A stretch of DNA of 33,023 bases from Patescibacteria group bacterium (GTDB lineage: Bacteria > Patescibacteriota > UBA1384 > UBA12157 > JAENIV01). The notes under the pieces are model-generated. The model made no database searches, was not told the DNA's origin, and saw nothing but the letters and a program-made list of their open reading frames with translations. Below are positions 9,224-32,703 of the stretch, piece by piece. Position 1 is the first letter of the stretch. Each line of letters begins with the position of its first letter. Location of the stretch: contig JAMCZU010000025.1 of NCBI GenBank assembly GCA_023485405.1, positions 1 through 33,023 on the forward strand. Reading direction: 5' to 3'. A program made the translations under genes and the position numbers.

Positions 9224-9892
9224 ATGCAAAGAAAAGATTGTTTGGTGAAGGGGGAAATTTATCACATTTTTAATCGAAGTATTGCGGAGTATGTTATTTT
9301 TAACGATGAAAATGAATACGAACGAATGCAGCAATTAGTGCGGTACTACAAAACTGAAAATTATCTTAGATTTTCTGATTTTCTGGAACTACAATTAGTG
9401 GTACAAAAAGGATTTACTAATGCGGTTAATATTGTGTCTAAAGATAATGACCCATTAGTTCAAATTATTGCTTGGTGTATTATGCCCACACATATTCATC
9501 TTGTGCTAAAACAGTTAACAGACCAAGGAATCTCTAATTACTTAAGAAAGATTTTAGAAAGCTATTCTTCATATTTTAATTCTAAACATAAAAGAAAAGG
9601 TCCATTATGGGAGAGTAAATTTAAAAATGTTTTGGTTAAAAATGACGAACAATTGCATCATTTAATAAGATATCTCCATTTGAATCCAGTCACGACTTAT
9701 TTAGTTGAATGTCCTGAAAAGTGGTTGTATTCTTCGTATTGTGAGTATCTTGGAAAAGTAGCAGATAGCCAGAAAATGTGCCAATTTGATGACATTCTAG
9801 AAATTAAACCGACTTCATATCGTAAGTTTGTCAACGACCAAATATCTTACCAAAGAGAATTAGCACAAATTAAAAAACTTTTATTCGACTAG
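9224..9892 (+). CDS. REP-associated tyrosine transposase (Y1/HUH family)
   Basis: Single-stranded DNA transposase of the IS200-like/TnpA-REP group, which nicks DNA at hairpins through a 5'-phosphotyrosine. The HUH motif is HIH at residues 90-92 within MPTHIHLVL. The helix with the nucleophile is SYSSYFN (Y114 and Y117 are candidates, Y117 the likelier by family pattern), followed by the typical GPLWESKFKNVLV strand and HHLIRYLHLNPV. The length of 222 aa is usual. It is flanked by near-identical palindromes at 9172-9192 and 9907-9927, so gene and palindromes form a self-contained unit between uvrA and the next cassette. It has no SD; the extended -10 box just upstream suggests a leaderless transcript. 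Motifs are intact, so it may be active. Confidence 0.93.
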   Translation: MQRKDCLVKGEIYHIFNRSIAEYVIFNDENEYERMQQLVRYYKTENYLRFSDFLELQLVVQKGFTNAVNIVSKDNDPLVQIIAWCIMPTHIHLVLKQLTDQGISNYLRKILESYSSYFNSKHKRKGPLWESKFKNVLVKNDEQLHHLIRYLHLNPVTTYLVECPEKWLYSSYCEYLGKVADSQKMCQFDDILEIKPTSYRKFVNDQISYQRELAQIKKLLFD

Positions 9893-24793: not shown

Positions 24794-26278
24794 ATGGCAG
24801 TTGAAATTAATGGCAAAGATTTTGAGTTAAAGCCGCGTCAAAATGTTCTCCAAAACCGAAAAGGTAAACCTTTTCGCGATTTTGATGACATTGCCATTAC
24901 TCGCGATGAATCAAAATGTATTGGTTGTGGACTTTGTCGGACAGCTTGCTCGGAATACAATAATTTAGGCATACCGGTGGAAACAAAAGTTGAAGACTGT
25001 TTTTACTTTCGGCCGGACGGAAAATTAAAAGTAACTGAAAGTAATTGTACTCGTTGTGGACAGTGTATTCTTGCCTGTCCCACCGGCACACTCTGGGAAA
25101 AAGAAAATATAATAGATGTCAAAAAAGATTTAGCCGATCCTGATAAAATTGTCATCGCTCAAATCGCGCCTTCATTGCGGGTTAGTCTAGGCGAATCATT
25201 CGGTCGAAATCCTGAAGATATTTTAGAAGGGCAAATGATTACCGCTTTGAAAAAACTTGGTTTTGACTTTGTTTTTGATGTTAATTTGGGGGCTGATTTT
25301 ACTACTTACGAAGAAGCGTACGATTTGAAAGACAGGATTTTAGAAGGCAAAACTCCTTTATTTACCTCTTGTTGTCCGGCTCGGGTTAAATTTATTGAAG
25401 ATTTTCATCCGAAATTAGTGGGTAATATTACTTCTGTTAGATCGCCACAAGAATGCTTAGCGGTTTTAATTAAAACTTATTTTGCTCAAAAACAAAATAT
25501 TGATCCAGCTAAAATCTCAGTTGTTTCGATTATGCCTTGTGTGGCGAAGAAATTTGAATCACGCCGTGAAGGTGAAAACAAATCTGGTCAATTTGATGTC
25601 GATTGGGTTTTAACTACTCGCGAGTTTATTAAAATGATAAAAGGCGAGCAAATTGATCTTCCGAATCTAGAAGCAGCAGAATTTGATACGCCTTTGGGTG
25701 AGGCCTCGGGTGCTGGTGCAATTTATGGTGCTTCGGGTGGAGTAATGGAATCGGCGGTCAGAACCTTCGCGGACATTTTTCGAAATGTTAAAATTGAAAA
25801 AATTGACTATATTTCGACAGAAATTCCGCGGCAAGCGAAGCTTGACTACCAAGAATTTCGAGGGATGGAGGGGATTAAAAAAGCGACTTTAAATATTGAT
25901 GGTAAAGAAATCAAAATTGCTGTAGCTACTGGCCTTGCTAATGCCGAAAAAATTATTGAAGAAATCAAAAATGGCGAAACTTATCATTATGTCGAAGTAA
26001 TGGCTTGTCCGGGTGGTTGTGTTGGCGGTGGTGGCCAGAGCAAACCGCAAAACAAAGAAATTATGGCTACGCGCGGAAATTTGCAAAAGCAAATTATTAA
26101 TAAGCGTCGTGAGGCTTTATATAAAATCGATGCTGGAAAATCTATTCGCAAAGCGCACGAAAATCCGATTTTAAAACAAGTTTATCAGGAATTTTTGGGT
26201 TGCGCTGGCTCGGAACTGGCCCAAAAATATTTGCATACAAATTATAATGTTAAACAAGCCCGAATTTGTCAGAATTAA
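24794..26278 (+). CDS. hydA: [FeFe]-hydrogenase with two [4Fe-4S] clusters
   Basis: Reduces protons with ferredoxin electrons, or the reverse, at the H-cluster. Ferredoxin domain: C42/C45/C48/C52 and C85/C88/C91/C95. H-cluster ligands: TSCCP at 191-195 (C193, C194), MPC at 247-249 (C249) and ACPGGC at 404-409 (C405, C409), followed by VGGGGQ. The small C-terminal subunit domain is fused (about 415-494). The length of 494 aa fits a monomeric enzyme without extra domains. In the first motif the usual Trp after TSCCP-x is replaced by Arg (TSCCPAR), which lies near the H-cluster. The maturases HydE, HydF and HydG are not in the window. It starts with SD AGGAAG, 7 nt after the small membrane protein. 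Likely fermentative electron sink beside gap and pgk. Confidence 0.93.
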
Positions 26279-30784: not shown

Positions 30785-31657
30785 ATGAAAATTGTAGTGA
30801 CCGGTTCTGACGGCTTTGTCGGTCGTCACTTGGTTGAGCTATTAAAAAAAGATTCTCACAATCGTATTTTTCCGTTGGATCTAAAACAAGCGGATATCAC
30901 TGATTTTTTACAAGTAAAAAAATATTTAACCAAGATTCAGCCAGATCAGGTTTACCACTTGGCTGGTTTTGCTTCCGGTGCGGGTATTGACAAAGATCTT
31001 ATTTTCAAAATTAATGTCTCTGGAACTTTAAATATTATAAAAGCACTCCAAGAACTCGAAAAACCTGTTAAAATCCTCTTGGCTTCCACAGCTTATGTTT
31101 ACGGCAATACTCCTAGCTGTGTGACAGAGTCTGGTAAGATTGCAGCTATTAGTTTTTATGATCAAAGTAAGATTGCAATGGAACAGGAAGTATTAAAATA
31201 TCAAAGTGATAACTTAAAAATTGTGATTACTCGCGCTACCAATCATACCGGTCCAGGTCAAAAATTAGGTTTTGTCGTGCCGGATTTTTGTACGCAAATT
31301 ATTGGAGTGAAAGATGGTGATGAAATTTTAGTTGGCAATCTTTCAGCCGAGCGCGACCTTTTTGATGTTCGTGATTGTGTCAAAGCTTACGAGCTTATTA
31401 TGGAAAAAGGTGGGTCAGGCCAGATTTATAATATTGGTACTGGTAAAACAACTTCTATTCAAGAAATTTTGGAGCAATTAATCAAAATTTCCGGTAAAAA
31501 ATTAACTTATAAAATTGATCCTCAAAAAATGCGACCATCAGATATTAAAAAGAACTGTGTTAATGCCGAAAAATTGAGAAAACTTGGTTGGAGGTCGCAA
31601 ATTTCTTTGGAAAAATCACTTAAAGATTGTTACGAGTACTATTTGACAACTGAGTAA
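30785..31657 (+). CDS. rmd: NAD-dependent epimerase/reductase, RMD-like
   Basis: Start taken at ATG 30785; an in-frame ATG 48 nt upstream is inside gmd. SDR-fold nucleotide-sugar enzyme: TGSDGFVGRHL at 6-16, VYHLAGFASG, and Y125/K129 in YDQSK. At 290 aa and next to gmd it is best read as GDP-6-deoxy-D-mannose reductase, giving GDP-D-rhamnose. GDP-fucose synthase is the main alternative but is longer (about 310-320) and carries other active-site residues. Both product sugars would go to surface polysaccharide or glycoprotein. Its 3' end carries the clpP promoter. Confidence 0.85.
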   Translation: MKIVVTGSDGFVGRHLVELLKKDSHNRIFPLDLKQADITDFLQVKKYLTKIQPDQVYHLAGFASGAGIDKDLIFKINVSGTLNIIKALQELEKPVKILLASTAYVYGNTPSCVTESGKIAAISFYDQSKIAMEQEVLKYQSDNLKIVITRATNHTGPGQKLGFVVPDFCTQIIGVKDGDEILVGNLSAERDLFDVRDCVKAYELIMEKGGSGQIYNIGTGKTTSIQEILEQLIKISGKKLTYKIDPQKMRPSDIKKNCVNAEKLRKLGWRSQISLEKSLKDCYEYYLTTE

Positions 31658-31671
31658 ATGTAAAGTACAAT
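31643..31671 (+). promoter_or_regulatory. Promoter of clpP
   Basis: TTGACA (31643-31648), exactly 17 nt, TACAAT (31666-31671): 11 of 12 consensus positions. The -35 lies in the last codons of rmd. Confidence 0.8.
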
Positions 31672-31689: not shown

Positions 31690-32292
31690 ATGACAAAAAA
31701 AGAGATCTCAAATCAGTATTTAGTGCCGATGGTTTTGGAAAAAAGCCAATTTGGTGAACGTTCTTACGATATTTACTCAAGGCTTTTAAAAGATAGAATT
31801 ATTTTTATTGGTGGACCGATTGACGATGTGGTCGCTAATTTAGTGATGGCTCAACTTTTGTTTTTAGATGCCGAAGATACCAAGAAAGATATCTCGATTT
31901 ATGTTAATTCTCCTGGTGGAGTAGTCACTGCCGGAATGGCAATTTACGACACAATTCAATACGTTAAAGCCGATGTTTCGACAATTTGTATCGGGCAAGC
32001 GGCTTCCGCGGCCGCTGTTCTTTTGGCGGCTGGTGCTAAAGGTAAACGCTATGCTTTACCCAATGCGCGAGTAATGATTCACCAAGTAATGGGTGGAGCC
32101 GAAGGTCAAGCGACTGATGTGGAAATTCAAACCCGTGAGATTTTGCGAATCAAAAAAGCCATTAATGAGATTCTGGCGAAACATACCGGTCAAAAAGTTG
32201 AAAAAATCGAAAAAGATTCTGATCGTGATTTCTATATGTCAGCTCTTGAAGCCAAAAAGTATGGCCTTATTGACGAAGTGATTAAGAAGTAA
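31690..32292 (+). CDS. clpP: ATP-dependent Clp protease proteolytic subunit
   Basis: Serine protease forming the tetradecameric chamber used with ClpX or ClpC unfoldases. Catalytic S106 lies in GQAASAAA, H131 in ARVMIHQ, and the third residue (Asp) in the [10 protein letters not shown] segment near 177-183. The length of 200 aa is standard. SD AAAGGA precedes ATG 31690. It has a strong promoter with an operator-like palindrome over the -10, which suggests repression under normal growth. The tRNA gene follows after 7 nt and both end at the terminator at 32399. Confidence 0.97.
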
Positions 32293-32299
32293 GAACTTT

Positions 32300-32384
32300 G
32301 CCCCCGTCGTCTAATATTGGCAAGACTACCGAGATCTACCAAGATCGAGGGTTGGACACACGGGTTCGAATCCCGTCGGGGGCA
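32300..32384 (+). tRNA. Anomalous tRNA gene with expanded anticodon region
   Basis: Clear tRNA framework: 7-bp acceptor GCCCCCG/CGGGGGC, T-C at positions 8-9, D arm GTCT-10 nt loop with GG-AGAC, T arm ACGGG-TTCGAAT-CCCGT, discriminator A, no encoded CCA. Between the D and T arms are 33 nt instead of about 22-23. The excess is a tandem near-duplicate: CTACCGAGAT (32326-32335) and CTACCAAGAT (32336-32345). With one unit removed, a 5+7+5 arm appears with CC(A/G)AG, loop ATCGAGG and GTTGG (closing G-G mismatch), giving T33 and anticodon CGA. As written, no normal anticodon arm forms and identity is unassigned. The 33-nt segment could also fold as a hairpin with tandem G-A pairs. May be a pseudo-tRNA, a processed precursor or a special function tRNA. 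Confidence 0.65.
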
Positions 32385-32398
32385 TATCATTTTTTAAT

Positions 32399-32423
32399 AG
32401 GAAGCAAATCGCTTCCTGTTTTT
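32399..32423 (+). terminator. Intrinsic terminator of clpP-tRNA
   Basis: AGGAAGC and GCTTCCT form a 7-bp stem with a 5-nt loop, followed by GTTTTT. It lies 14 nt after the tRNA. Confidence 0.85.
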
Positions 32424-32433
32424 ACTAAATTTG

Positions 32434-32442
32434 TGGTATAAT
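32434..32442 (+). promoter_or_regulatory. Extended -10 promoter of the DUF378 gene
   Basis: TGgTATAAT: a perfect -10 at 32437-32442 with an extended TG at 32434-32435. No good -35. The ATG is at 32468 after SD GAGGGGGTG. Confidence 0.65.
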
Positions 32443-32467: not shown

Positions 32468-32668
32468 ATGCAAAAAGGCACCCTTTATTGGATTACTCTT
32501 ATTCTTTTGATCATTGGTGGTCTGAACTGGGGTTTAATTGGTATTTTTAGATGGGATTTAGTAGCTGTTATTTTTGGTGACTTAAGTGTCATTTCAAGAG
32601 TCATTTATACCTTAGTTGGTGTTTCTGCTTTGTATATTGGAATCTCAGCTATTAGTGCCAAAGAGTAA
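32468..32668 (+). CDS. DUF378 family small membrane protein (66 aa)
   Basis: Start chosen at ATG 32468, 7 nt after the strong SD GAGGGGGTG; an ATG nine codons earlier overlaps the -10 box. Two hydrophobic helices (about 5-30, LYWITLILLIIGGLNWGLIG, and about 38-60, VISRVIYTLVGVSALYIG) with the diagnostic GGLNWGL motif and an acidic/aromatic loop (RWDLVAVIFGD). This is the YuzA/DUF378 pattern found in many bacteria, function unknown. It is a single-gene unit with its own promoter. Confidence 0.88.
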   Translation: MQKGTLYWITLILLIIGGLNWGLIGIFRWDLVAVIFGDLSVISRVIYTLVGVSALYIGISAISAKE

Positions 32669-32674
32669 GAAAGC

Positions 32675-32703
32675 TTGACACAGTTTTAAAGTCAAGCTAT
32701 AAT
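32675..32703 (+). promoter_or_regulatory. Perfect sigma-70 promoter embedded in an inverted repeat
   Basis: TTGACA (32675-32680), exactly 17 nt, TATAAT (32698-32703), all 12 positions consensus. AGCTTGAC (32672-32679) and GTCAAGCT (32691-32698) form a perfect 8-bp inverted repeat covering the -35 and reaching the -10, a likely operator. It reads rightward into sequence without an ORF. Confidence 0.85.

Follow-up and report, generated by a model that had tools for sequence, protein, structure and literature searches.

A tRNA-Glu-like element with a period-10 repeat in place of an anticodon arm downstream of clpP in a Patescibacteria group genome

Introduction

The nearest described case to the locus reported here is tRNA-Other of Bacillus cereus, a tRNA relic that has no role in translation and lies inside a larger transcript (PMC3399842). 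It is a pseudo-tRNA that acts, if at all, within the larger RNA; its anticodon is that for Trp, it lies at the flank of a genomic island, several Bacilli carry it, and its deletion produces a phenotype (PMC3399842). Non-canonical tRNAs that are active, among them tRNA-Sec, tRNA-Pyl, allo-tRNA and mitochondrial tRNAs, keep a usable anticodon arm (PMC7609411). The work on tRNAscan-SE 2.0 notes that bacterial predictions with low scores or atypical features are for the most part handled as pseudogenes (PMC8450103). A literature search found no report of tRNA oddities in this bacterial group.

Here we analyse a tRNA-like element in a 33,023-nucleotide stretch of DNA (the window) from a Patescibacteria group bacterium. 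Like tRNA-Other, it appears to be a non-translational tRNA relic within a larger, in this case putative, transcript. Unlike tRNA-Other, it lacks an anticodon, is associated with no island or att copy that we could find, and occurs in only one of the genomes searched. It departs from the standard cloverleaf, as do the non-canonical active tRNAs, but it has lost the anticodon arm that these retain and has kept an ordinary 7/5 acceptor/T branch.

Results

The element and its arms were delimited as follows.

32300..32384, + strand: tRNA-Glu-like element; Rfam RF00005, 36.6 bits; no ARAGORN call; CCA not encoded (A73 is followed by TAT)
32309..32326, + strand: D arm as drawn from the sequence, GTCT-AATATTGGCA-AGAC; in-silico probability 0.09
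32360..32376, + strand: T arm ACGGG-TTCGAAT-CCCGT; identical in both tRNA-Glu genes of the genome

The Rfam score exceeds the gathering score of 29, which makes the element a member of the Rfam tRNA family, and the match confirms a tRNA-like element at exactly the position given in a preliminary description of this DNA. ARAGORN rejects it under bacterial and mitochondrial options, with and without introns. That description had called the arms perfect. This holds for the acceptor stem (GCCCCCG/CGGGGGC, 7 of 7 pairs possible) and for the T arm (5 of 5); the D stem (GTCT/AGAC) can form all four pairs on paper but is weakly favoured in silico, as its low probability in the unconstrained fold indicates. 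Further tRNA marks are U8, A14, G18G19 and the TTCGAAT T loop. Between A15 and G18 the D loop runs to four bases, one above the usual number. GC content is 58% in the element and 37% in the window, and the element shows no other signs of decay.

Among the tRNAs of its own genome, the two tRNA-Glu genes are closest to the element by body, with identity throughout the T arm and the segment TCGTCTA (positions 8-14). Apart from the element itself, eight BLAST matches were listed in its own genome and relatives; all fall in tRNA-Glu genes, including the sole one among them from its own genome. By sequence, the body belongs to the tRNA-Glu lineage and not to serine. As read from the alignment, three acceptor pairs differ from the genome's Glu(TTC) on both sides with pairing retained, so that either the helix was kept until recently under pairing constraint or the element descends from a different tRNA-Glu. 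The start of its acceptor 3' strand, CGGG, is that of tRNA-Glu in genomes G017 and G028. The element differs from the tRNA-Glu genes of the genome and its class in its unrecognisable anticodon arm, the lack of CTC or TTC, a period-10 repeat, and A73, although A73 is also found in the tRNA-Glu genes of G005 and G006.

The middle of the element is occupied by the repeat and by two candidate hairpins.

32321..32346, + strand: tandem array, period 10, 2.7 copies, consensus CAAGATCTAC (Tandem Repeats Finder; shuffles)
32339..32355, + strand: 17-nt arm CCAAG-ATCGAGG-GTTGG with would-be anticodon CGA, four pairs and a G.G mismatch; the only 17-nt arm with U33; predicted not to form
32329..32350, + strand: predicted non-anticodon hairpin CC-GA-GATCT-ACCA-AGATC-GA-GG; pair probabilities 0.8-1.0

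The D and T arms are 33 nt apart, as first counted, and within this distance CTACCGAGAT is directly followed by CTACCAAGAT. We shuffled the 33-nt region 20,000 times by mononucleotide and 20,000 times with dinucleotides preserved. Adjacent repeats of 10 nt or more that differed by no more than one mismatch turned up in 6 of the former and in none of the latter; the period-10 repeat exceeds chance within the element. A 10-nt tandem duplication that alters the anticodon arm had been proposed. The repeat itself stands, but with about 2.7 copies rather than two, and the array reaches beyond the anticodon arm, its first bases lying in the D-stem 3' strand.

Collapse of one repeat unit had been taken to restore a nearly normal arm with the serine anticodon CGA, a reading that our analysis contradicts. 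The collapsed arm, CCAAG-AUCGAGG-GUUGG, has four pairs, a G.G mismatch and one extra linker base, and the same arm is present at 32339-32355 without any collapse, downstream of the first repeat copies. At least four pairs with U33 arose in 449 of 2000 shuffles (22%), so the arm provides no evidence for a CGA anticodon. A functional tRNA has a 5-bp anticodon stem, a 7-nt loop and an anticodon; the best arm here has four pairs and a G.G mismatch, comes with a 12-nt linker and has a predicted probability of about 0. We enumerated all deletions of 8-13 nt: none yields a five-pair arm with U33, and the four-pair outcomes are within chance. An intron-containing tRNA was rejected on the ground that no such single-block removal restores a canonical anticodon arm, and an excised mini-insert, another of the early suggestions, has nothing in its favour beyond the repeat. 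Nor is there room for the long variable arm of tRNA-Ser(CGA), with 4 nt separating the would-be arm from the T stem. The glutamate-type body, the missing long arm, an intact long-arm Ser(CGA) elsewhere in the genome and the predicted near-zero probability of the CGA loop together led us to reject a serine tRNA.

Folding predictions, which are for unmodified RNA and ignore modified bases and tertiary contacts, favour the central hairpin. When the fold is constrained to the cloverleaf body, the middle with the lowest energy is CC-GA-GAUCU-ACCA-AGAUC-GA-GG, at -33.2 kcal/mol; the cloverleaves that show a CGA loop (structures B and C) reach -26.8 and -24.0 kcal/mol. The unconstrained fold (-34.4 kcal/mol; z -3.0) retains acceptor, T arm and central hairpin at probabilities of 0.76-1.0 and disfavours the D stem because GUCUAAU pairs with GUUGGAC. 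The predicted fold suggests that the would-be anticodon is buried. The central hairpin has no second or dispersed copy in the genome at up to three mismatches.

We compared the element with the tRNA complement of its genome (G000), a draft of 832,514 bases in 37 contigs that is 94.85% complete. It is the lowest of 37 Rfam tRNA matches, the remaining 36 of which ARAGORN calls, and it falls below all 130 Rfam tRNA matches in three relatives (G001-G003; minimum 44.2 bits). Degenerate tRNA-like loci are thus rare in the group, and this one stands out. The whole-genome check that had been proposed found intact Glu(TTC), Glu(CTC) and Ser(CGA), and the element is therefore not the only copy of its isoacceptor. 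No tRNA-Met, tRNA-Asn, Ser(TGA) or Leu(CAA) is called in the genome, probably as a result of assembly gaps.

Five ARAGORN-called tRNAs of the genome likewise lack an encoded CCA, so a missing CCA is by itself no bar to charging. The CCA-adding enzyme (PF01743) was not found in the draft. It is present in G001, G002 and G003 (in G001 as a fragment at a contig end), and a match is absent from 11 of the 31 good-quality genomes in our search of relatives, G000 included. Given the five called tRNAs without CCA and the enzyme in G001-G003, the gene probably lies in an assembly gap, and we dropped the lack of CCA and of PF01743 as proof that the element is not charged.

The element lies between a protease gene and a region that probably leads to an rRNA operon.

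31643..31671, + strand: promoter-like site of clpP, TTGACA-17-TACAAT, 11/12 in a consensus scan in which promoter-like sites overall are near shuffle expectation
31690..32292, + strand: clpP (ClpP protease, PF00574; Pfam E 7.3e-86), 88% identical to that of G001, a genome of the same family
32396..32425, + strand: intrinsic-terminator-like hairpin AATAGGAAGC/GCTTCCTGTT with T-rich tail; -15.1 kcal/mol, z -4.3 for 32385-32440
32468..32668, + strand: gene for a DUF378 small membrane protein (Pfam PF04070, 1.1e-21)
32675..32703, + strand: sigma-70 promoter TTGACA-17-TATAAT, 12/12, probably for an rRNA operon past the contig end

Only 7 nt separate the clpP stop codon from the element. The early claim that it sits directly after clpP and shares its transcript is correct as to position; cotranscription is likely, given the promoter-like site at 31643 and the terminator-like hairpin after the element. 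This hairpin is absent from the matches of our consensus terminator scan. SSU rRNA follows clpP in G001, and in G003 the contig that carries clpP has DUF378 ahead of SSU rRNA. Elsewhere in the window, ORFs at 9224-9892 and 24794-26278 resemble, by sequence only, a Y1-type (REP-associated) transposase and an iron-only hydrogenase with ferredoxin domains.

Searches of 60 relatives and of 380 genomes sampled from the phylum returned no homologue of the element, and a pattern search with its 5' half found none. At the relatives' clpP loci examined, no tRNA or tRNA-like match lies behind clpP; the matches of our clpP-based scan of genome contigs came mostly from distant phyla. Between clpP and the rRNA promoter of G001 (contig C25, L157:1455-1486), where the element sits in our genome, there is a hairpin rich in GC, CCCCGTTAGAT/ATCTAATGGGG, which lacks a T-run; alignment does not support homology between the two. 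Phages and plasmids gave matches of T-arm length only, IMG/VR viral contigs contained neither of two exact patterns of the element, and a phage or plasmid origin was rejected. We also rejected an integration att site: apart from the T arm of Glu(TTC), the genome holds no second copy of the element's 3' half.

Discussion

We propose, with a probability of roughly 0.6, that the element is a genome-specific, non-decoding pseudo-tRNA, the relic of a tRNA-Glu-type gene. Judged by sequence, it derives from a tRNA, lacks the means to decode and is dispensable as an isoacceptor. Of the options first raised for this locus, a dying tRNA is the best supported: the Rfam score is the lowest in the genome, ARAGORN makes no call, the anticodon arm has a probability of about 0, and intact isoacceptors exist. 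The element is almost certainly unable to read codons. Against a relic stand the perfectly paired acceptor and T stems, acceptor changes that keep pairing, and the absence of other decay in so GC-rich an element.

A relic could have arisen as follows. In this lineage a tRNA-Glu-type gene would have become placed downstream of clpP, ahead of the DUF378/rRNA region, and slippage of a 10-nt unit over the junction of D stem and anticodon arm would have generated the tandem array and left no intact anticodon arm. The clpP mRNA probably extends to the hairpin at 32396-32425 and carries the element as its tail, from which RNase P and RNase Z may still excise it. The relic would yield no decoding product and be tolerated, with nothing lost, since the genome keeps intact tRNAs for Glu and Ser at other loci.

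Alternatively, the element could be a retained tRNA-like structure that serves as the 3' end of the clpP mRNA, either as a site for RNase P and RNase Z cleavage or as protection of the transcript, with a plain hairpin standing in for the anticodon arm. Its start just past the clpP stop codon, the terminator-like hairpin behind it, the predicted stability of acceptor, T arm and central hairpin, and the presence of an unrelated GC-rich hairpin at the same place in G001 are all consistent with such a role. We nevertheless consider it unlikely: no relative has a homologue or a conserved structure, most have nothing comparable after clpP, and a chance tRNA relic would look identical. It is more doubtful still that a tRNA-Glu gene was captured after clpP and now acts as a tRNA-like mRNA 3' element, the enzymes that cut tRNA ends setting the end of the transcript and the plain hairpin replacing the anticodon arm.

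An assembly or sequencing slip at the short repeat, with a shorter true gene, is improbable. The adjacent period-10 repeat is exact, the draft is fragmented and the contig ends shortly downstream, but any read would be much longer than the 26-nt array, which makes slips there rare. With one unit removed, the stem still has only four pairs and a G.G mismatch, and CGA would sit on a Glu-type body.

We regard as very improbable a working, unusual tRNA in which the extra 10 nt are looped out or excised and which reads UCG or is charged with Glu. The intact sequence does contain the 17-nt arm with U33 and CGA, and two repeat copies are each available as a pairing partner for the D stem (structures B and C), but these structures lie 6-9 kcal/mol above the hairpin form, UCG is already served by Ser(CGA), and CGA is at odds with a Glu-type body. 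We know of no bacterial enzyme for such an excision of 10 nt from a tRNA. A Glu-charged, non-decoding tRNA used outside translation, in cell wall, peptide or tetrapyrrole chemistry, would fit the Glu-type body and the acceptor, D and T arms that can form, but is least credible of all: GluRS normally reads the anticodon, which is absent here, CCA is not encoded, PF01743 is missing from the draft (probably through a gap), and no linked pathway gene lies beside the element.

If the element is only a relic, it provides a clean example of a tRNA killed by a 10-nt slippage array, and a caution that collapsing repeats may suggest an anticodon that chance gives too. If its RNA is made and kept, it would be a rare instance of a reduced bacterial genome putting the tRNA fold to new use at the end of an mRNA.
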